Origin: Dokdonella koreensis DS-123
GTDB lineage: Bacteria; Pseudomonadota; Gammaproteobacteria; Xanthomonadales; Rhodanobacteraceae
Direction: 5' to 3'
Assembly (NCBI RefSeq): GCF_001632775.1
Contig: NZ_CP015249.1
Coordinates: 1,840,686-1,904,685, forward strand
DNA: 64,000 bases
The notes below the pieces were generated by a model. The model made no database searches. It saw nothing but the letters and a program-made list of their open reading frames with translations, and was not told where the DNA came from. Numbering within the stretch: the stretch's first letter is position 1; each line of letters begins with the position of its first letter. Below are positions 40,563-52,868 of this stretch, in pieces. A program made the translations under genes and the position numbers.

Positions 40563-42128
40563 ATGAACAACAGCAATGAGAAGCCGCCCGTGCAGGCGGA
40601 CGGTGGCGCAGGCGAGCCGGCCGGCGCTCCGGATGTTTCCGAGAACCGGCTGGTCGCCGAGCGCCGCGAGAAGCTGCGCGCGCTGCGCGAGCGAGGGCCG
40701 GCCTTCCCGAACGATTTCCACGTCGGCGACGCAGCCGGCGACCTGCAGTCCGAGTACGCCGACGGTACGGCATGGACCGCCGAGGCGCTCGATACGGCGG
40801 CACGGCGCGTGCGTGTCGCCGGCCGCATCATCCTGCGCCGCATCCAGGGCAAGGTCAGTTTCGTGCAGCTGCAGGACGGCAGCGGCCGCATCCAGCTGTT
40901 CATCCATCAGGGCACCCTCGGCGAGGACGCGTACGAGGCGTTCAAGGGCTGGGATGCCGGCGACATCGTGGGCGCCGCCGGCGTCCTCATGCGGACCAAG
41001 ACCGGCGAGCTGTCGGTCAAGGTCGACGAGCTCCGGCTGCTGACCAAGTCGCTGCGACCGCTGCCGGACAAGTGGCACGGCCTGGCCGACATCGAGCAGC
41101 GCTACCGCCAGCGCTACGTCGACCTCATCGTCACGCCGGAGGCGCGCGAGGTGTTCCGCGTCCGGGCGCGCCTGATCCGCTTCATCCGCGACTACCTGGA
41201 GGCGCCCGCGCGCTGCTTCGTCGAGGTGGAGACGCCGATGATGCACGCGATCCCGGGCGGGGCGACCGCGCGGCCGTTCGTGACGCACCACAATGCGCTC
41301 GACCTGGACATGTACCTGCGCGTGGCGCCGGAGCTGTACCTCAAGCGCCTGGTCGTCGGCGGTTTCGACCGCGTCTACGAGATCAACCGCAATTTCCGCA
41401 ACGAGGGCGTCTCGACCCGGCACAACCCCGAGTTCACGATGCTCGAGCTGTACCAGGCCTACGCCACCTACCTCGACGTCATGGACCTCACCGAGGACCT
41501 GATCCGGGAGGGTGCACGCGCGGTGCTCGGCCGGACCGAACTGGCCTGGGAGGGGCGCACGATCGACGTCGGTGCACCGTTCCGGCGCTGGCGCATGGAG
41601 GATGCGGTCCGCGAGCTCAACCCCGGCATCGCCGCGGAGGACCTGCGGGACCGCGAGGCCCTGGCCGGCCACTCCCGCCGGCTCGGCATCCCGGTGAAGC
41701 CGGATTTCGGCTGGGGGCGCCTGCTGCTGGAGATCTTCGAGAAGACCGTCGAGCACACGCTGATCCAGCCGACCTTCATCACCGCCTACCCGACCGAGGT
41801 CTCGCCGCTGGCACGCCAGAGCGACGCCGATCCGGGCATCACCGACCGTTTCGAGCTGTTCGTCAACGCCAAGGAGCTGGCCAACGGCTTCTCCGAGCTG
41901 AACGACCCGGAAGACCAGGCGGCGCGCTTCATGGCGCAGGTCCAGGCCAAGGACGCCGGTGACGACGAGGCCATGCATTTCGATGCCGACTACATCCGCG
42001 CGCTCGAGTACGGCCTGCCGCCGACGGGTGGGCTCGGCGTCGGCATCGACCGCCTGGTGATGCTGTTCACCGACTCGGCCTCGATTCGCGACGTGCTGCT
42101 GTTCCCGTACATGCGGCCGGAGGCCTAG
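40563..42128 (+). CDS. lysS: Lysyl-tRNA synthetase (class II)
   Basis: LysRS (521 aa) charges tRNA-Lys. The OB-fold anticodon-binding domain lies at about residues 75-160 ([23 protein letters not shown] in two parts). The catalytic core has motif 2 in [18 protein letters not shown] and motif 3 in [21 protein letters not shown]. About 20 extra residues at the N-terminus are Glu/Pro-rich and probably disordered. It follows prfB by 30 nt and is the last gene before the rpfG leader. Confidence 0.97.
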
Positions 42129-42494
42129 GTACGGCGGTGAGCCGTCCCGTACCGATGTTGCGACAGGCCCCGGCGGTCCCGGGGCCGGCTCCGGCGGCGC
42201 GCCGTCGGTGCCGCGCGCCCGGTGTTGCTGCGAATCCCGGCTGTCCGGCCCGTCCGGTCGGCGCGGGATCGCCCATCGAGTCGTCGCCTGCGCGTTCTCC
42301 CCGGGAACCGGGCTGCGTGCCGGCGTACGTGAAAGTACGGCATGTGAATTTCTTGCACGGGCCGAGCTATGTTAGCCTCGGCCCGCTTATGCTATGCGGC
42401 GTCGGGCCGGGCTCCGCCAGCAGCGTGATCAACGACGTCCATCGGGGGTTGGCGTCCGACGGCCTGGAATCGCTAGAGGTCGCGGAGAGCTCGA
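42129..42494 (+). other. 366-nt non-coding region between lysS and rpfG
   Basis: I find no convincing gene here. In the Xanthomonas cluster, as I recall it, rpfD lies between lysS and rpfG; no remnant is recognisable. The region holds a GGTACGG...CCGTACC dyad right after the lysS stop, a CGTAC-GTGAAA-GTACG dyad at 42324-42339, and a longer hairpin at 42359-42384. The last 150 bases are less GC-rich than the surroundings, as expected of a control region. Confidence 0.6.
42359..42384 (+). promoter_or_regulatory. Inverted repeat in the rpfG leader
   Basis: GGGCCGAG (42359-42366) is perfectly complementary to CTCGGCCC (42377-42384). Pairing continues inward as CTA/TAG past a single bulged base, leaving a TGT loop. 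A TATGTT hexamer (4/6 to -10) overlaps it at 42368-42373. It could be an operator, an RNA hairpin, or the end of the lysS transcript. Confidence 0.45.
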
Positions 42495-43547
42495 GTGAAT
42501 GTACTGATAGTGGATGACCAGCCGTCGGCTCGTACGATGCTCCGGCACGTGGTGGAGGCGATCGGCCCCGGCATCCGGGTTTCGGATTTCGGCAGCCCCG
42601 TCGACGCCCTGCGCTGGTCCGACGCCAATCCGGCCGACCTGCTCCTGCTGGACTACCGCATGCCGGAAATGGACGGGCTGGAGTTCGCTCGCCGCTTCCG
42701 GCGCCCGATGGCGCGCCGGGACGTGCCGATCGTCCTGATCAGCGTCGTCGGCGACGAGCCGATCCGGCAGGCGGCGCTGGATGCCGGCGTGATCGATTTC
42801 ATGGTCAAGCCGATCCGGCCGCGCGAACTGCGCTCGCGTTGCAAGAACCTGCTGCAGCTGCGGCGCCAGGGCGAGTCGGTCAAGGAGCGCGCGCGCTCGC
42901 TGGAACAGCGCGTGCTGCAGAGCATCAGCGAGGTCGAGCAGCGCGAGCGCGAGACGCTGTTCCGCCTGGCCAAGGCGATCGAGTACCGCGATTTCGGCAC
43001 CGGCATCCACCTGCTGCGCATGGCGCACTACTCGGAGCTGCTGGCCGAGGAGCTGGGGATGCCGGAGGAGGACGCCCGCATCCTGACGCTGGCGGCTCCG
43101 CTCCACGACATCGGCAAGATCGGTGTGCCCGACTCGATCCTGCTCAAGCGCGGCAGCCTCCTGGAGGAGGAAATGGCGGTCATGCGCAAGCATCCGCTGA
43201 TCGGCTACGAGATCCTCAAGGACAGCCAGAGCCGGTTCGTGCAGATGGGGGCGCTGATCGCGCTGCGGCACCATGAGCGCTGGGACGGCAGCGGCTACCC
43301 GGACGGGTTGCGCGGCGAGGCGATTCCGCTGCCGGCCCGCATCGTCGCGCTGGCCGACGTCTACGACGCGCTGACTTCGGAGCGTCCGTACAAGGCGGCC
43401 TGGAGTTCCGAGGACGCATTCGACTATATCCAGGCCCATCGTGGCACGCTTTTTGATCCTTCCTGTGTAGACGTGCTGCTGGCGCATCGCTCACGGATCG
43501 TCGATATCCAGCAGTCGAAGCTGGCGCCGCACGGCCTGGGGCTTTGA
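42495..43547 (+). CDS. rpfG: RpfG: two-component response regulator with HD-GYP phosphodiesterase domain
   Basis: RpfG (350 aa) couples DSF sensing to c-di-GMP breakdown. The receiver domain (1-120) has Asp7/Asp8, the phosphoacceptor Asp53 in LLLLDYRMPEMDG and Lys105 in FMVKPI. A linker helix leads to the HD-GYP domain, with LHDIGK (His204, Asp205), KHPLIGYEIL, RHHERWDGSGYPDGL (GYP at 267-269) and DVYDALTSERPYK. These are the residues of an active phosphodiesterase. The start is GTG at 42495 with a GGAGAG site just upstream. rpfC follows after 107 nt; rpfH is absent. Confidence 0.93.
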   Translation: MNVLIVDDQPSARTMLRHVVEAIGPGIRVSDFGSPVDALRWSDANPADLLLLDYRMPEMDGLEFARRFRRPMARRDVPIVLISVVGDEPIRQAALDAGVIDFMVKPIRPRELRSRCKNLLQLRRQGESVKERARSLEQRVLQSISEVEQRERETLFRLAKAIEYRDFGTGIHLLRMAHYSELLAEELGMPEEDARILTLAAPLHDIGKIGVPDSILLKRGSLLEEEMAVMRKHPLIGYEILKDSQSRFVQMGALIALRHHERWDGSGYPDGLRGEAIPLPARIVALADVYDALTSERPYKAAWSSEDAFDYIQAHRGTLFDPSCVDVLLAHRSRIVDIQQSKLAPHGLGL

Positions 43548-43654
43548 CCGCGCCAGGTCGGCCCGTCCGGGCCGGGGCGCCTGTGCCGGGTCGGTAGGCG
43601 GCCACCGCAGGAGAGGGGCATGACGCCCCGCCAGGATCTGTCAGAGCGAAGCTA

Positions 43655-45808
43655 ATGCACTCAGTGCTGGAAATCGTCAAGCAGCGTCTGTCGAACCGTC
43701 CGGACAGCGAGCACGGGCAGGCCGTGGTGCGCGTGTCGATCGTCGCGCTGTGCATGATGTACCTGTTCGGTGTCGGCGCGGTCTCCGGCTACGGCGACCC
43801 GGCACTGAAGGCGGTCATGCTGATCGGCGTGCTCGACGTGCTGGCGTCGATCCTGATCCTCGCCCACATCGTCTTCCGCCCGGGCCGCTCCAACGTCCGG
43901 CGCGTGGTCGGCATGCTGGTGGACTACAGCGTGATCGGCGCCAACATGCACATCATGGGCACGCAGCTTTCGCTGCTGTACGTGCTCAACATGTGGGTGA
44001 CGATCGGCAACGGCTTGCGCTACGGCCCGTGGTTCCTGCTGATCTCGGTCGCGATGGGCGCGCTGTCGTTCCTGGCGGTCATCCTGACCACGCCGTTCTG
44101 GCAGAGCAACGACATCCTGGCCTGGGGCCTGCTGATCGGCCTGATCGCGATTCCGGCCTACCTGACCTCGCTGCTGCGCGCGCTGACGCGGGCCACCGAG
44201 GAGGCGCGGCGCGCGAACGAGGCCAAGAGCAGCTTCCTCGCCAACATGAGCCACGAGTTCCGCACGCCGCTCAACGGCATCGTCGGCATGTCCGACCTGC
44301 TGCTGACGACGCGCCTTACCGGCGAGCAGCGCGAGTACGCGGACGTGCTGCAGGCTTCCGCGCGCTCGCTGCTGACCCTGGTCGAGGACGTGCTCGACAT
44401 TTCGGCCATCGAGGCCGGAAAACTCAAGTACAACGCGGCCGACTTCCAGATCGACGACGTCCTGCACAGCGTGCAGCTGATGATGCAGCCGCTGGCGGCG
44501 AACAAGGGACTGCAGTTCGACCTGGCCGTCGCCGACGACGTGCCGTCGGCGGTGCACGGCGATCCGGGACACCTGCGCCAGGTGCTGATCAACCTGGTCT
44601 CCAACGCCGTCAAGTTCACCGAGAACGGACGGGTGGACCTCGGCGTCACGCGCCTGCGCGACCATGCCGGCGGCAGCGTCGTGCGCTTCGAGGTGCGCGA
44701 TACCGGCATCGGTATCGAGGAGGAGGCCCAGGCGCGGATCTTCCAGGCCTTCGAGCAGGCCGAGAGCGGGCATGCCCGCCGCTTCGGCGGCACCGGCCTG
44801 GGGACGACGATCGCCAAGGCGATGACCGAGCAGATGGGCGGCACGATCGGTTTCGAGAGCCAGACCGGCCGGGGCTCGGTCTTCTGGGTCGAGATCCCGT
44901 TCCGGGTCCCGGCGCCGCAGGGCGGCGCGGAGCCGTCCGCGGTGGCGACGGCCACCAACGTCATCTCGTTCGACGATCCGTTCGTGCGGCATCGCGCGCG
45001 TGCGCGCTCGATGCGCCTCCTGATCGCCGACGACCAGCCGGCCAACGTGTCGGTGCTGCGCAAGCTGCTGGAGAAGGCCGGTCATCAGATCCACGCGGTG
45101 GACAACGGCGAGGCGGTGCTCGACGCGATCGAGACGACGACCTACGACGCCGTCATCATCGACCTGCACATGCCCGGGGTCAGCGGCATCGACGTCATCC
45201 GCCAGTCGCGCGTGATGCAGGCCGGACGGCAGCTGACCCCGTTCATCGTGCTCAGCGCCGACGTGACGGCGCGCACGATCGCCGAGACCGAAAGCGCCGG
45301 TGCCCATGTCTTCCTGGCCAAGCCGGTGGTCGTGTCCCGGCTGCTCGACGTACTCGCCGACATCGCTTCCGGCGTCAAGAACGAAGACGGCCAGAAGGCG
45401 GCCGGGTCACCGCTTCCGCTCACGGATGAAACCGTCTCGCGCGAAGTGCTGAACGACCTGGAGGAGCTGCATCTGGGATCGGGCTTCGTCAGCCTGTTCG
45501 TCGACGAATGCATGCAGGACGCGCTCAAGTGCATCGGCCAGCTCGACGCGCTGGCCGAGGAAGCGCAATGGGACGAGTACCGCGACGTCTGCCATGCGCT
45601 GAAGGGCGTGGCCGGCAACGTCGGCGCGATGCGCCTGGCGCAGGCGGCCTCGGAAAGCATGCGGCTGGCCAACTGGCAGCTGGCGCGCGAATGGAAGATG
45701 CGCAACCAGGGCGTGAGGAAGCAGCTCGAGCAGGCGCAGGCTGCGTTCCGGACGATCCTGCAGGATCGCAATGCCGGCGGCTCGGCGCGCGCCAATCCGG
45801 ACCCCTAG
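43655..45808 (+). CDS. rpfC: RpfC: hybrid sensor kinase for DSF signal
   Basis: RpfC (717 aa) perceives DSF at the inner membrane, phosphorylates RpfG and, in Xanthomonas, holds RpfF inactive. The N-terminal 20 residues ([10 protein letters not shown] at 11-20) closely resemble the recalled DSF-binding segment of Xanthomonas RpfC. Five hydrophobic helices follow (about 23-175). Next come HisKA (His200 in [12 protein letters not shown]), HATPase ([29 protein letters not shown]), a receiver domain (Asp503 in VIIDLHMPG) and a C-terminal HPt domain (His647 in [12 protein letters not shown]). All phosphorelay residues are present. It is convergent with rpfF, as in Xanthomonas. Confidence 0.94.
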
Positions 45809-45809
45809 C

Positions 45810-45841
45810 GCCGGCACCCCGGATCGCCCCGGAGTGCCGGC
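45810..45841. terminator. Hairpin between convergent rpfC and rpfF
   Basis: GCCGGCAC (45810-45817) pairs with GTGCCGGC (45834-45841). Inside it, CCGG pairs with CCGG around a 6-nt loop with one mismatch. Symmetric and in a 47-nt convergent gap, it could act for both genes, but no T-run flanks it. Confidence 0.5.
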
Positions 45842-45855
45842 CATCGCGAAGCGGA

Positions 45856-46779
45856 CTAGACGGCCTGCAGCGCCGGCCGGGCCAGATCCGCGCGCTCGGC
45901 GGCCGCTTGCGGCTTGCGCTGCTGGACGCGGACCAGGCGCTCCATCGTCCGCAGGGACTTGTCGCCGAGCTCCATCGCCGTGTCGACCCAGATCTCGGTG
46001 ACCCGCATCAGCTCGTCCAGCGTCACCGGATTGCAGGCCTGGCGTACGCGGTTCATCGCGACGCGGGCGTGGGGAATGCGCTGATTGCGGCGGATCAGGT
46101 CATTGACCGCCTGCACGCCTTCGCCGCGCGGCACCAGGACGTCGACCACGCCCATCGCGTGCAGCTCGTCGCTGGAGTACACGTTGCCGCTCAGGATCAT
46201 TTCCTCGGCGAGCTTGGCGCTGATGCGCTGGCGCAGGAACGAGTAGGCGCCCATGCCCGGGAACAGGTCGAACAGGACTTCCGGGAAGCCCATGCCGACG
46301 CCGCTTTCGGCGACGATCGTCTGGCAGGCCAGGGCCAGTTCCAGGCCGCCACCGAGCGCGTCGCCCTGGACCAGCGCGATCGAATGGACCTTGTGGGTCG
46401 CCGCTGCCGCGTACACGCCGTGCACGCCTTCGACGCAGAGGCGGGCATAGGACAGCAGGTGCTCGCGATTGCGTTCGCGGATGAGGCGGCCGAACAGTTC
46501 CAGGTCGCCGCCGAGGTTGAACACGTCCGCATCCGAGCCGAGCACCAGATGGGCCAGCTTGCCGTCCTGGCCGGTGCCGACCGGCATCGCCTGCTCGACG
46601 CTGCTGCGAAGGTACAGGTGCAGTTCCTTGAGCAGTTGCACCGAGAAGCACGCCCGGTAACCGAGGTCGTGCTGGGGCTGGTGCTTGTGCATGAAGAACC
46701 ACGAAGCATGGGTGCCTTCGTCTTCGTGAGTGCGGAGCAGCTGGTAGTCGTTGGTGTCGCGCATTTCTTTCGTATTCAT
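45856..46779 (-). CDS. rpfF: RpfF: DSF synthase (crotonase fold)
   Basis: RpfF (307 aa) makes diffusible signal factors, cis-2-unsaturated fatty acids, from 3-hydroxyacyl-ACP by dehydration and thioester hydrolysis. The crotonase core shows GDALGGGLELALACQTIVAE's first half and GFPEVLFDLFPGMGAYSFL. The two catalytic glutamates are Glu147 (GGGLE) and Glu167 (GFPE), with the same 20-residue spacing as Glu141/Glu161 of Xanthomonas RpfF. The N-terminal extension (WFFMHKHQPQHDLGYRACFS) is also RpfF-like rather than enoyl-CoA hydratase-like. A 218-nt leader with dyads separates it from the upstream FabZ-like gene. Confidence 0.93.
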   Translation of the reverse strand: MNTKEMRDTNDYQLLRTHEDEGTHASWFFMHKHQPQHDLGYRACFSVQLLKELHLYLRSSVEQAMPVGTGQDGKLAHLVLGSDADVFNLGGDLELFGRLIRERNREHLLSYARLCVEGVHGVYAAAATHKVHSIALVQGDALGGGLELALACQTIVAESGVGMGFPEVLFDLFPGMGAYSFLRQRISAKLAEEMILSGNVYSSDELHAMGVVDVLVPRGEGVQAVNDLIRRNQRIPHARVAMNRVRQACNPVTLDELMRVTEIWVDTAMELGDKSLRTMERLVRVQQRKPQAAAERADLARPALQAV

Positions 46780-46802
46780 GGCTATATACCCTCGGGGTAG
46801 AG

Positions 46803-46888
46803 CGCTTGTCGGATCGCGGATTCAAGCGTTGGCAGGCGTTTGCGCTGGTTTGCACAAGCGATCGACAGGCAGTTTAGCCCGCTGTCAA
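46803..46888 (-). promoter_or_regulatory. rpfF leader with CGCTTG repeats and a -35-like hexamer
   Basis: CGCTTG at 46803-46808 faces its complement CAAGCG at 46823-46828 across 14 nt, and another CAAGCG lies 32 nt further at 46855-46860. A perfect TTGACA (minus strand, 46888-46883) sits upstream, but I see no good -10 at standard spacing. The promoter itself is therefore not located. Confidence 0.33.
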
Positions 46889-46997
46889 GTCATTGAATAC
46901 TGACGGACCGCGCAAAATATACGCGCGCCATTGCACCCGATTCGGCCGTCAAAAGCGGTGAAAAGGACGGCTCCGGACGTTATTTCCGGGGCGGGCT

Positions 46998-47441
46998 TCA
47001 GTGCGTCGGGGTATGGGGAAGCACCGCCAGCACGGTGTCGATCGTGGCGACGCGGCGGCCGCCGGCATATACCAGGACGTGGGCGAAGTTGATATTGCGC
47101 TTGCGCTGGACCGAGGCTTCCAGCCGGATCGACGGATTTTCCGGAACGACGGGATGTTGGAAGTCCGCGTTCGCGCGCACCAGGCGGGGGCGCCCGCGCT
47201 GGCCTTGCGACCAGGCCCACAGGGCGGTGAGCTGGCCGGCCGCCTCGATGATCAGGGTGCCCGGAAAGATCGGGTCGCTGGGAAAGTGCTGGCGATAGAC
47301 CCAGTGCGCTTCGCCGAGATCGACCTCGCCGTCGATGTGCGCGCCGTCGACCCGGGTGATGCGGGAGATCTGACGCATCTGGTCGATGGGGAGGAACGTG
47401 GCATCGATGTCGATCAGGGACGTCGGCAAAGGATCGGGCAT
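46998..47441 (-). CDS. FabZ-like hotdog-fold 3-hydroxyacyl dehydratase in the rpf cluster
   Basis: The 147-aa single-domain protein has the FabZ active-site signature HFPSDPIFPGTLIIEAAGQL. The catalytic pair would be His52 and Glu66, with the same 14-residue spacing as His54/Glu68 of E. coli FabZ. This predicts dehydration of a 3-hydroxyacyl thioester. It is divergent from housekeeping FabZ in the N-terminus and lacks the usual lpxD/lpxA neighbours. It lies between rpfB and rpfF on their strand, 110 nt after rpfB and 218 nt before rpfF. In Xanthomonas, as I recall, rpfB and rpfF have no such gene between them. A role in DSF metabolism is inference. Confidence 0.78.
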   Translation of the reverse strand: MPDPLPTSLIDIDATFLPIDQMRQISRITRVDGAHIDGEVDLGEAHWVYRQHFPSDPIFPGTLIIEAAGQLTALWAWSQGQRGRPRLVRANADFQHPVVPENPSIRLEASVQRKRNINFAHVLVYAGGRRVATIDTVLAVLPHTPTH

Positions 47442-47551
47442 GGACGAAGCGGGCGTGACCGGACAGACGGGAAGGGTGAGCCCGGTCGTCGCCGCCGGGT
47501 CGGGCGATCGAACCGATGCGCCCGAACCGGAAAGACTAGCAGATGCCGCGA

Positions 47552-49237
47552 TCAGGATGCTGCGCTGTCGCGCAGTTCGCGGCGCAAAATCTTGCCGACG
47601 TTGGACTTGGGCAGCGACGAGCGGAACTCGATGCTGCGCGGACGTTTGTAGCCGGTCAGGTTCGCGTGGCAGAAGTCACGCAGCTGTTCCTCGGTCAACG
47701 AAGGATCCTTCCGGACGACGACCAGTTTGACCGCCTCGCCGGATTTCTCGTCCGGGATGCCGACCGCGGCGACCTCGAGCACGCCGGGGTGCTGCGCGAC
47801 GACGTCCTCGACCTCGTTCGGATATACGTTGAAACCCGAAACGAGAATCATGTCCTTCTTGCGATCGACGATATAGAAAAACCCCTTGTCGTCCATCCGC
47901 GCGATGTCGCCGGTGCGCAGCCAGCGATCGGCCGACAACACCTTGTCGGTTTCGTCCTGGCGGTTCCAGTAGCCCTTCATGACCTGCGGGCCGCGGATGC
48001 ACAGTTCGCCGGTTTCGCCGACGCCCAGGTGCCGGCCCTCGTCGTCCTGGATCGAGGCATCGGTCGACGGCACCGGCAGGCCGATCGATCCGTTGTAGTC
48101 CTTGAGGTCGATCGGGTTCATGCACGCGGCGGGCGAGGTTTCGGTGAGACCGTAGGCTTCCACCAGGGTGACGCCGGTGACCTTCTTCCAGCGCTCGGCG
48201 ACCGCCTTCTGCACGGCCATGCCGCCGCCCAGTGTCATGCGCAGGTTCGAGAAATCGACCTGATCGAATCCCGGCGTGTTGAGCAGGCCGTTGAACAGCG
48301 TATTGACGCCGGTGAAGGCGGTGAAGCGCAGCTTGCGGATCTCGCGCACGAAGCCGGGCATGTCGCGCGGATTGGTGATGAGATAGTTGGTGCCGCCCAT
48401 CTTCACGAAGACCAGGTAGTTCGCCGTCAGCGCGAAGATGTGGTACAGCGGCAGCGCCGTGATGATGACTTCCTCGCCCTCGCGCAACCGGGTGCTGATC
48501 CAGCTGTAGGCCTGGAGCATGTTGGCGACGATGTTGCGATGGGTCAGCATCGCGCCCTTGGCGACGCCGGTCGTGCCGCCGGTGTACTGCAGGAACGCGA
48601 TGTCGCCCGAGGCGATCTCCACCGGCGCCAGCGTCCCGGCGGCGCCACGGCGCAGCGCGTCCTTGAAGCGGACCATGCCCGGTATCGCATAGGCCGGCAC
48701 CAGCTTCTTGACGTACTTGACGACGAAGTTCGTCAGGACCGACTTCGGGAAGCTGAGCAGGTCGCCGAGGCCGGTCGTGATGACCTGCCGGCAGGCCGGC
48801 GCGTCGCGCAGCACTTCGGCCACGGTATGGGCGAAGTTGTCGAGCACGATGATCGCGCTGGCGCCGGAATCGACCAACTGGTGCCTGAGTTCGCGGGGCG
48901 TGTAGAGCGGATTGACGTTGACCACCGTCAGGCCGGCGCGCAGCACGCCGAAGATCGCGATCGCGTACTGCAGCGTGTTGGGCATCATGATCGCGACGCG
49001 ATCGCCTTGCGCGAGTCCCAGGTCGTTGCGCAGGTACGTCGCCAGATCGCGGCTCAGCCGGTCCAGGTCCCCATACGTCAGCGTACTTCCCATGCTGCGG
49101 AACGCCGGGTTGGCGGCGTAGCGTCGACAGCTGTCCTCGAGCAGGTCGGTGACCGAGCGGTACTGGTCCGGGTCGATCTCGGCCGGAACCCCTTCGGGGT
49201 AATGGGCTAGCCAGGGCTTCTCGGGGGAGCTGACCAT
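47552..49237 (-). CDS. rpfB: RpfB: long-chain fatty acyl-CoA ligase (FadD type)
   Basis: RpfB (561 aa, the length of E. coli FadD) activates fatty acids with ATP and CoA; in Xanthomonas it contributes to DSF turnover. Adenylate-forming motifs are intact: [18 protein letters not shown], the YGLTETSP block, [27 protein letters not shown], and the catalytic Lys near the C-terminus in [12 protein letters not shown]. The ATG at 49237 was preferred to an in-frame start 123 nt upstream because it has a GAGGTG site and gives the family length. The gene order rpfB - dehydratase - rpfF suggests joint expression. Confidence 0.9.
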
Positions 49238-49434
49238 CGGTTCGGGCACCTCGGGTGTTGCTTGGAAAGGGGCATCGTCCGGGCACCGCGGGAACGCGGC
49301 ACGGGGACCATACGCGATCGCATCGTCCCGATTGCAGCATACCGCCCGAACAACCGGCAAGCCGCAGCGCAGCGATCGCTGGCCCGATCGGCGCGGATCG
49401 CCTATCGTCTTCGATCCCGACAGGAACGATCGCG

Positions 49435-49878
49435 ATGACCCGCTTGCGCACGCTTGGCCGCCTTCTGCTCCTCGGTCTGCTGGTGGCCGTGTCGGCCTGT
49501 ACGCGGGGCGGTGACGAGCAGCGGCTGCGGGCGGCGCTGGAGGACATGCACACGGCGATCGAGCAGCGGCGTCCCGGCGACTTCATCGATTTCGTCGCCG
49601 AGGACTTCACCGGCGCCGAAGGCACGTTGGACCGCGCGGCGCTGCACAACCTGCTGCGTGGCCAGGTGCTGCGCAACGAACGCATCGACGTCGTGCTCGG
49701 TCCGGCGGACATCCAGATCCAGGGCGACCGGGCGACCGTCAGCGTGACCGCGACCCTGGCCGGCGGCAGCGGCGGCTGGCTGCCCGAACGCGGCGCGGTC
49801 TACGCGATCACCAGTGGCTGGCGCCGGGACGGCGGCGACTGGCGCTGCGTCAACGCGCAGTGGCGCCAGTCGCTGTAG
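49435..49878 (+). CDS. Putative lipoprotein with NTF2-like fold
   Basis: The 147-aa product has a lipoprotein signal peptide with lipobox VSAC (Cys22); the +2 residue is Thr, consistent with outer-membrane sorting. The mature part resembles the NTF2/SnoaL-like alpha+beta fold ([39 protein letters not shown]). No catalytic residues are obvious. It is divergent from rpfB (197-nt gap) and converges on acnA. Function unknown. Confidence 0.72.
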
Positions 49879-49945
49879 GCAGCCGTCGGCCGATCGCCGG
49901 CGACGCGCCCGGGTTGCATACCGGACGCGCCGCGTCGATGCGCCC

Positions 49946-52702
<2,757 letters not shown>

Positions 52703-52868
52703 CGGAACGTTCCTTTGGCTGGTGACGAAAGATCGGCTGAGGACGGAGCGGCACCGCTGCGTCCGCCCAGGCCTGCGAGGCGCCCCGTGTCCGGGATTAT
52801 CCGCCTTGCCGCATGGGGACGGGATGAATCCGGCATGCACAATGGGGCATGCCGGGCAGTATGCGGGC

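Follow-up and report, generated by a model that had tools for sequence, protein, structure and literature searches.

A FabA/FabZ-family gene between rpfB and rpfF in Dokdonella koreensis and its possible part in DSF metabolism

The window, a 64,000-nucleotide stretch of contig NZ_CP015249.1 of Dokdonella koreensis DS-123 (family Rhodanobacteraceae), holds an rpf/DSF cluster in which an rpfB-like and an rpfF-like gene share one strand and converge with rpfG- and rpfC-like genes (Table 1). Between rpfB and rpfF, on their strand, lies a FabA/FabZ-family gene that we call FabX, exactly where the first-pass annotation had placed it. FabX is likewise found inside the rpf cluster and on the rpfB/rpfF strand at locus L085 of a second genome of the genus, G086, where the order rpfB-FabX-rpfF is repeated (loci L006 and L085). 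The RpfB-like ligase is 90% identical to its G086 copy and passes the NCBIfam model NF005463 (871.3 against a cut-off of 869), while scoring under the cut-offs of the other models shown. The RpfF-like protein matches the solved RpfF 3m6m at 2.3e-88 and keeps the GGGxE and xPE glutamates of the aligned solved relative, which we take to be the catalytic ones. Its score of 360.8 lies under the NCBIfam RpfF equivalog cut-off of 550, and the name rpfF therefore rests on homology and gene order. An open reading frame beside rpfB (49946-52840) resembles an aconitase by eye; PMC4504480 and PMC9864630 describe the Xanthomonadaceae rpf cluster with rpfG and with an aconitase gene next to rpfB.

Table 1. 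Coordinates of the rpf cluster features in the window.
Feature	Position	Strand	Remarks
rpfG-like response regulator with HD domain	42495..43547	plus	Pfam; convergent with rpfF
rpfC-like hybrid sensor kinase	43655..45808	plus	Convergent with rpfF
rpfF-like DSF synthase (crotonase)	45856..46779	minus	Homology to 3m6m and gene order
Putative conserved leader/promoter region of rpfF	46780..46924	minus	92% identity to G086
FabA/FabZ-family dehydratase, predicted (FabX)	46998..47441	minus	147 aa, ATG start, PF07977, His52/Glu66, purifying selection, hotdog-type model
rpfB-like fatty acyl-CoA ligase	47552..49225	minus	ATG at 49225 assumed; mechanical ORF from TTG 49360

The only Pfam family found for FabX at E ≤ 0.001 is PF07977 (FabA), at 69.4 bits against a cut-off of 23, and the same search gave no MaoC domain (PF01575). 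His52 and Glu66 lie 14 residues apart inside HFPSDPIFPGTLIIEA, a spacing shared by the His/Glu pair of the genome's own FabZ and the His/Asp pair of its own FabA, and the catalytic pair that had been read from the sequence is thus correctly spaced. In the alignment, Glu66 occupies the position of the catalytic Asp of FabA and sits in a FabZ-like context, GTLIIEA. Arg113 is invariant across 23 aligned FabA, FabZ and FabX rows and Arg115 is nearly so; this stretch presumably corresponds to the ACP-binding one of FabA and FabZ. The window and G086 copies agree in the His/Glu pair and in almost the whole motif around it; they are 79% identical over 144 codons, with a dN of 0.141, a dS of 0.76 and a ratio of 0.185. 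This ratio, the GC content by codon position (0.69/0.46/0.85) and the same gene order in G086 mark FabX as more than a chance frame. FabX accordingly reads as an intact gene under purifying selection, with neighbours whose dN/dS between the same two genomes is 0.163 (rpfF), 0.156 (rpfB), 0.148 (rpfC) and 0.050 (rpfG). Its dS is about twice that of these four genes (0.35-0.42), so that its history is not exactly theirs.

The earlier description of the gene as a FabZ-like dehydratase holds for the family and not for FabZ itself, since FabX falls outside the FabZ clade and scores 35.5 and 33.1 against NCBIfam FabZ equivalog cut-offs of 113 and 155.15. It is also below the FabA equivalog cut-offs, at 46.8 against 124 and 40.6 against 238.15. 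FabX is not the sole gene of its kind: a PF07977 search of its own genome returns four places, namely FabA (161 bits), FabZ (125 bits), FabX (69 bits) and a weak match of 21.5 bits inside a longer frame that resembles an acyl-CoA-synthetase-type protein. The canonical fabZ lies at G000:C1:1084263 and encodes a product of 160 aa; FabX is 31% identical to the genome's FabA and 22% to its FabZ. The phylogeny against the housekeeping genes, one of the checks proposed in the first-pass annotation, sets it apart from both. In a tree of 29 rows, the 18 FabA sequences form one clade, the nine FabZ sequences form another (98/94), and FabX with its G086 ortholog (100/98) branches outside the two, on FabZ's side when the tree is midpoint-rooted, a placing to be read with the long branches (about 3 changes per column) and a program warning in mind. 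We conclude that FabX belongs to the FabA/FabZ family and, as judged by these comparisons, stands outside both named groups. Two other readings are rejected: canonical fabA and fabZ are both present, so the first-pass refuting condition, that FabX be the only fabZ of the genome, does not apply, and the long separate branch and the 31% and 22% identities exclude a recent duplicate of either.

The predicted structure has a mean pLDDT of 84.1 and a pTM of 0.78, with low confidence over most of the first 13 residues. The top Foldseek match is Pseudomonas aeruginosa FabA (1.4e-9, TM 0.77, 25% identity), E. coli FabZ-AcpP stands at rank 13 (6.7e-9), and the ACP complexes 4keh and 6n3p are among the matches. 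As the model was built from a 23-row alignment holding both FabA and FabZ rows, this agreement supports a hotdog fold and does not choose between FabA and FabZ. Searching solved chains by sequence places 2cf2_C first (1.1e-14, named as a fatty acid synthase DH domain), followed by P. aeruginosa FabA (1.7e-8). FabX is thus far from any characterised enzyme, with about 25% identity to solved FabA, and its substrate and product are therefore only predicted; it is probably an active, lineage-specific dehydratase of the FabA/FabZ family.

Close relatives of FabX are confined to its own genome and G086, two of the ten genomes of the genus, in a search of 147 family genomes at a threshold of 1e-3. 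The look at related genomes suggested at the outset therefore yielded the same place in G086 and close relatives in that one other genome only. FabX is matched in its own genome alone among 348 order genomes (1e-12), with four additional weak matches among 369 class genomes and two among 398 phylum genomes (both at 1e-10), all reading as FabA; these samples overlap, and G086 was matched in the family sample only, as the others may not include it. The query was the protein or a two-sequence alignment, and the best other matches (about 1e-9 to 1e-11) are FabA or FabZ among those whose sequence was read. Plasmids gave no match at 1e-5. Scanning named genomes with two N-terminal FabX patterns returned a single locus, L065, with absence elsewhere being weak evidence in such a scan. 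This locus, from a Dokdonella MAG, carries FabX at 80% identity, with the same identity and profile score as G086 and in a similar place, and the two are probably the same genome. In G086 the fabA match is split between two open frames (G086:C1:1773354-1773742, loci L123 and L128, profile positions 1-78 and 86-137), owing to either a disrupted frame or a sequencing error there.

At E ≤ 1e-40, 37 of 197 family genomes match RpfF (38 places). Of 299 order genomes 85 match; 11 of these 85 belong to the family, the window's genome among them, and the rest contribute 75 places in 74 genomes. The surroundings of rpfF were taken from 113 stretches that represent 112 places (one place twice), the window left out. 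A four-sequence profile, run at E ≤ 0.1 on frames of 70 codons or more, detects a FabA/FabZ-like frame in only one of these stretches, that of G086, and the first-pass statement that Xanthomonas clusters lack the gene thus holds for this sample. With the window included, FabX accompanies two of 113 rpfF places, so no recurrent association with rpf across lineages was found; the remaining 111 rpfF places gave no such gene.

The space between rpfB and rpfF is variably occupied. In 70 of the 113 stretches the two genes lie on one strand with no query gene between them, and the gap between match ends is 164 to 297 bases in 60 of these and 333 to 1425 bases in ten. A PilZ-like gene on the other strand lies between them in 12 stretches; the remainder comprises 13 stretches without rpfB or another query gene (two being the same place), two with PilZ and no rpfB, one with FabX and 15 with a divergent RpfF. 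Within the family, besides the window, rpfB and an rpfF share a strand in 17 of 37 places, where the intervening gene is PilZ-like in 15 (three also with ACP and ketosynthase genes), FabX in one (L085) and neither in one (L088). Outside the family, the long gaps of L132 and L180 hold a DinB-like frame, named by eye, and the gaps above 1 kb in L179 and L201 hold no nameable gene. The rpfB-rpfF slot accepts unrelated genes, which weakens any argument for FabX function from its position. The PilZ-like slot genes (L069:5128-5490, L078-L083, L090-L092 and L100-L102), all opposite in strand to rpfB and rpfF, share 37-65% identity with the query in most relatives; Pfam confirms the family for one of them, and they may link the rpf cluster to c-di-GMP. 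No counterpart of these genes turned up in G000, the window's genome, or in G086 at E ≤ 0.01, in a search that had no positive control and could have missed a diverged copy.

Conservation between the window and G086 divides the region behind rpfB. Identity is 59% in the 110-base gap between rpfB and FabX and 77% in FabX. Behind FabX it first drops to 42% and then climbs to 92% over the 145 bases that precede rpfF, where 135 of 146 columns match. Because these 145 bases are better conserved than FabX itself, rpfF most likely has a promoter and leader of its own, which would leave FabX on the rpfB side; with such a leader before rpfF, FabX need not be expressed together with it. A separate promoter of rpfF is stated for Xanthomonas in PMC4504480. 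The segment is a candidate regulatory element of rpfF. No structured RNA of Rfam matched up to E 0.1 across 42000-50000, the leader included, and no sigma-70-like consensus was found in 45700-49500, a pattern that suits few promoters of such genomes. Among other rpf loci, the leader finds only weak short matches beside G086.

A FabZ-type enzyme forms the trans-2 product from the same 3-hydroxyacyl-ACP substrate that serves RpfF. As PMC4542539 describes, RpfF converts 3-hydroxyacyl-ACP by dehydration into the cis-2 form and cleaves the thioester, which bears out the substrate named for it in the first-pass annotation. With a probability of somewhat under two in five (0.38), we favour FabX as an accessory (3R)-hydroxyacyl-ACP dehydratase that draws on the substrate pool of RpfF. 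On this reading a Dokdonella lineage would have acquired the gene between rpfB and rpfF. Because rpfF has a separate leader that sets it apart from the gene, FabX expression would go with that of rpfB and not with that of rpfF. The enzyme would dehydrate medium-chain (3R)-3-hydroxyacyl-ACP to trans-2-enoyl-ACP and so move the RpfF substrate towards ordinary chain elongation, and its level would affect the amount and chain length of the 3-hydroxyacyl-ACP left for RpfF to convert into the cis-2 signal. The PF07977 match, His52/Glu66, Arg113/Arg115, the model matches, the dN/dS, the separate fabA and fabZ genes and the substrate of RpfF all support this reading; its presence in two genomes only, the permissive slot, the separate rpfF leader, the sub-cut-off score of rpfF, the remote homology and the differing dS weaken it. 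A DSF-modifying step by FabX, as suggested in the first-pass annotation, is conjectural. A more specific role, in which FabX is a dedicated (R)-3-hydroxyacyl dehydratase for the signal itself, either turning the RpfF substrate into the trans-2 isomer or finishing an RpfB-dependent breakdown of DSF, is put forward tentatively and may well not hold.

The permissive gap also allows FabX to be a fatty-acid or lipid dehydratase that landed beside rpfF by chance of position and serves general or specialised lipid synthesis apart from DSF, an explanation that is itself doubtful and nearly as likely as the accessory dehydratase. That other lineages hold a PilZ-like gene, a DinB-like gene or no gene in this gap, and that FabX occupies so few rpfF places, are what such an arrival would lead one to expect. 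However, its enzyme class matches the substrate class of the flanking enzymes, and its identical placement in two genomes is suggestive, yet may represent a single event.

A role in signal turnover beside RpfB is unlikely. Hydration of a cis-2-enoyl-CoA gives an (R)-3-hydroxyacyl-CoA, which ordinary beta-oxidation cannot use without an (R)-specific dehydratase; FabX would convert this intermediate to trans-2-enoyl-CoA and so complete the breakdown of DSF, with RpfB making CoA esters from DSF and from fatty acids released by the RpfF thioesterase. Its start 110 bases behind rpfB on the same strand, across a poorly conserved gap and apart from the rpfF leader, is consistent with such a role. MaoC is the usual (R)-hydratase family, and the window's genome has no PF01575 (MaoC-type) match at E ≤ 0.001. 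This is a weak hint, because G086, which has FabX, also has a MaoC-type match, whereas G073, which lacks FabX, has none (three of five genomes matched). FabA and FabZ enzymes normally act on ACP rather than CoA substrates, and the positively charged stretch is kept in FabX, which speaks against turnover. RpfB is reported in PMC9040794 to make DSF-CoA for beta-oxidation, but the review PMC4504480 reports little activity of it on BDSF. Finally, it is very improbable that FabX has become a binding or regulatory hotdog protein and is no longer an enzyme: its long branch from FabA and FabZ would fit such a change, but the His/Glu pair and almost all of its surrounding motif are kept in both genomes.

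Some relatives of the window present a further combination of RpfF with fatty-acid-synthesis genes. A divergent RpfF, 38-45% identical to that of the window, is preceded on its own strand by a ketosynthase gene in 15 places (L069:6027-8482, and L066-L068, L070-L077, L086, L203 and L204), 13 of them among the family's 37 places outside the window and two among the other 75. An ACP gene accompanies it in 12 of the 15, the contig of L086 ending before that point, and the 13 family places also have a divergent RpfC facing it. In a simple motif search of the 15 sets, the ACP serine is found in six, the ketosynthase Cys in seven, its two His in 14 and 11, and both RpfF glutamates in 14; the misses may be motif variants. 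The arrangement suggests a DSF synthase equipped with a fatty-acid module of its own, perhaps for another signal. A four-sequence profile found no FabA/FabZ-like gene in these sets, and a literature search for them found nothing, going by titles. The two types of RpfF occur together in one genome of the genus, G045 (L068 and L078), where each has an RpfC-like kinase of its own next to it.

DSF signals come out of fatty-acid synthesis, and the way cells fix their amount and chain type is understood only in part. A gene of the right enzyme class inside the cluster offers a single-gene handle on whether DSF is tuned locally, through the 3-hydroxyacyl-ACP pool or through degradation of the signal. 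If it acts on the signal, FabX would add a third enzyme to DSF metabolism, one missing from the other rpf clusters surveyed. Considered together with the ACP-ketosynthase-RpfF sets of relatives, FabX raises the possibility that the family linked components of fatty-acid synthesis to DSF synthases on more than one occasion. Our literature search for a dehydratase gene with rpfB/rpfF or in Dokdonella found no description of one.

Compared with known systems, FabX resembles FabZ in PF07977, in a His/Glu pair 14 residues apart and in its similar length (147 aa against 160 aa), but differs in its sub-cut-off score and its place outside the FabZ clade, with the canonical fabZ elsewhere in the genome. 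It resembles FabA in that FabA gives its best NCBIfam and fold-search scores and in a common W-x4-H-F-x2-D-P motif, but has Glu for Asp, a shorter N-terminus and a score under the cut-off, with the canonical fabA elsewhere in the genome. The cluster as a whole is like the rpf/DSF cluster of Xanthomonadaceae, with rpfB, rpfF and a convergent rpfC in the order-level stretches; it differs in its FabA/FabZ-like frame, none being found around the 75 rpfF places of the order that lie beyond the family, which we assume to be mostly Xanthomonadaceae. A functional parallel is FabG2 (XCC0416) of Xanthomonas campestris, a second fatty-acid-synthesis enzyme that passages of PMC5941067 tie to the supply of DSF precursors without placing it in the rpf cluster; FabG2 is a reductase, whereas FabX is a predicted dehydratase.
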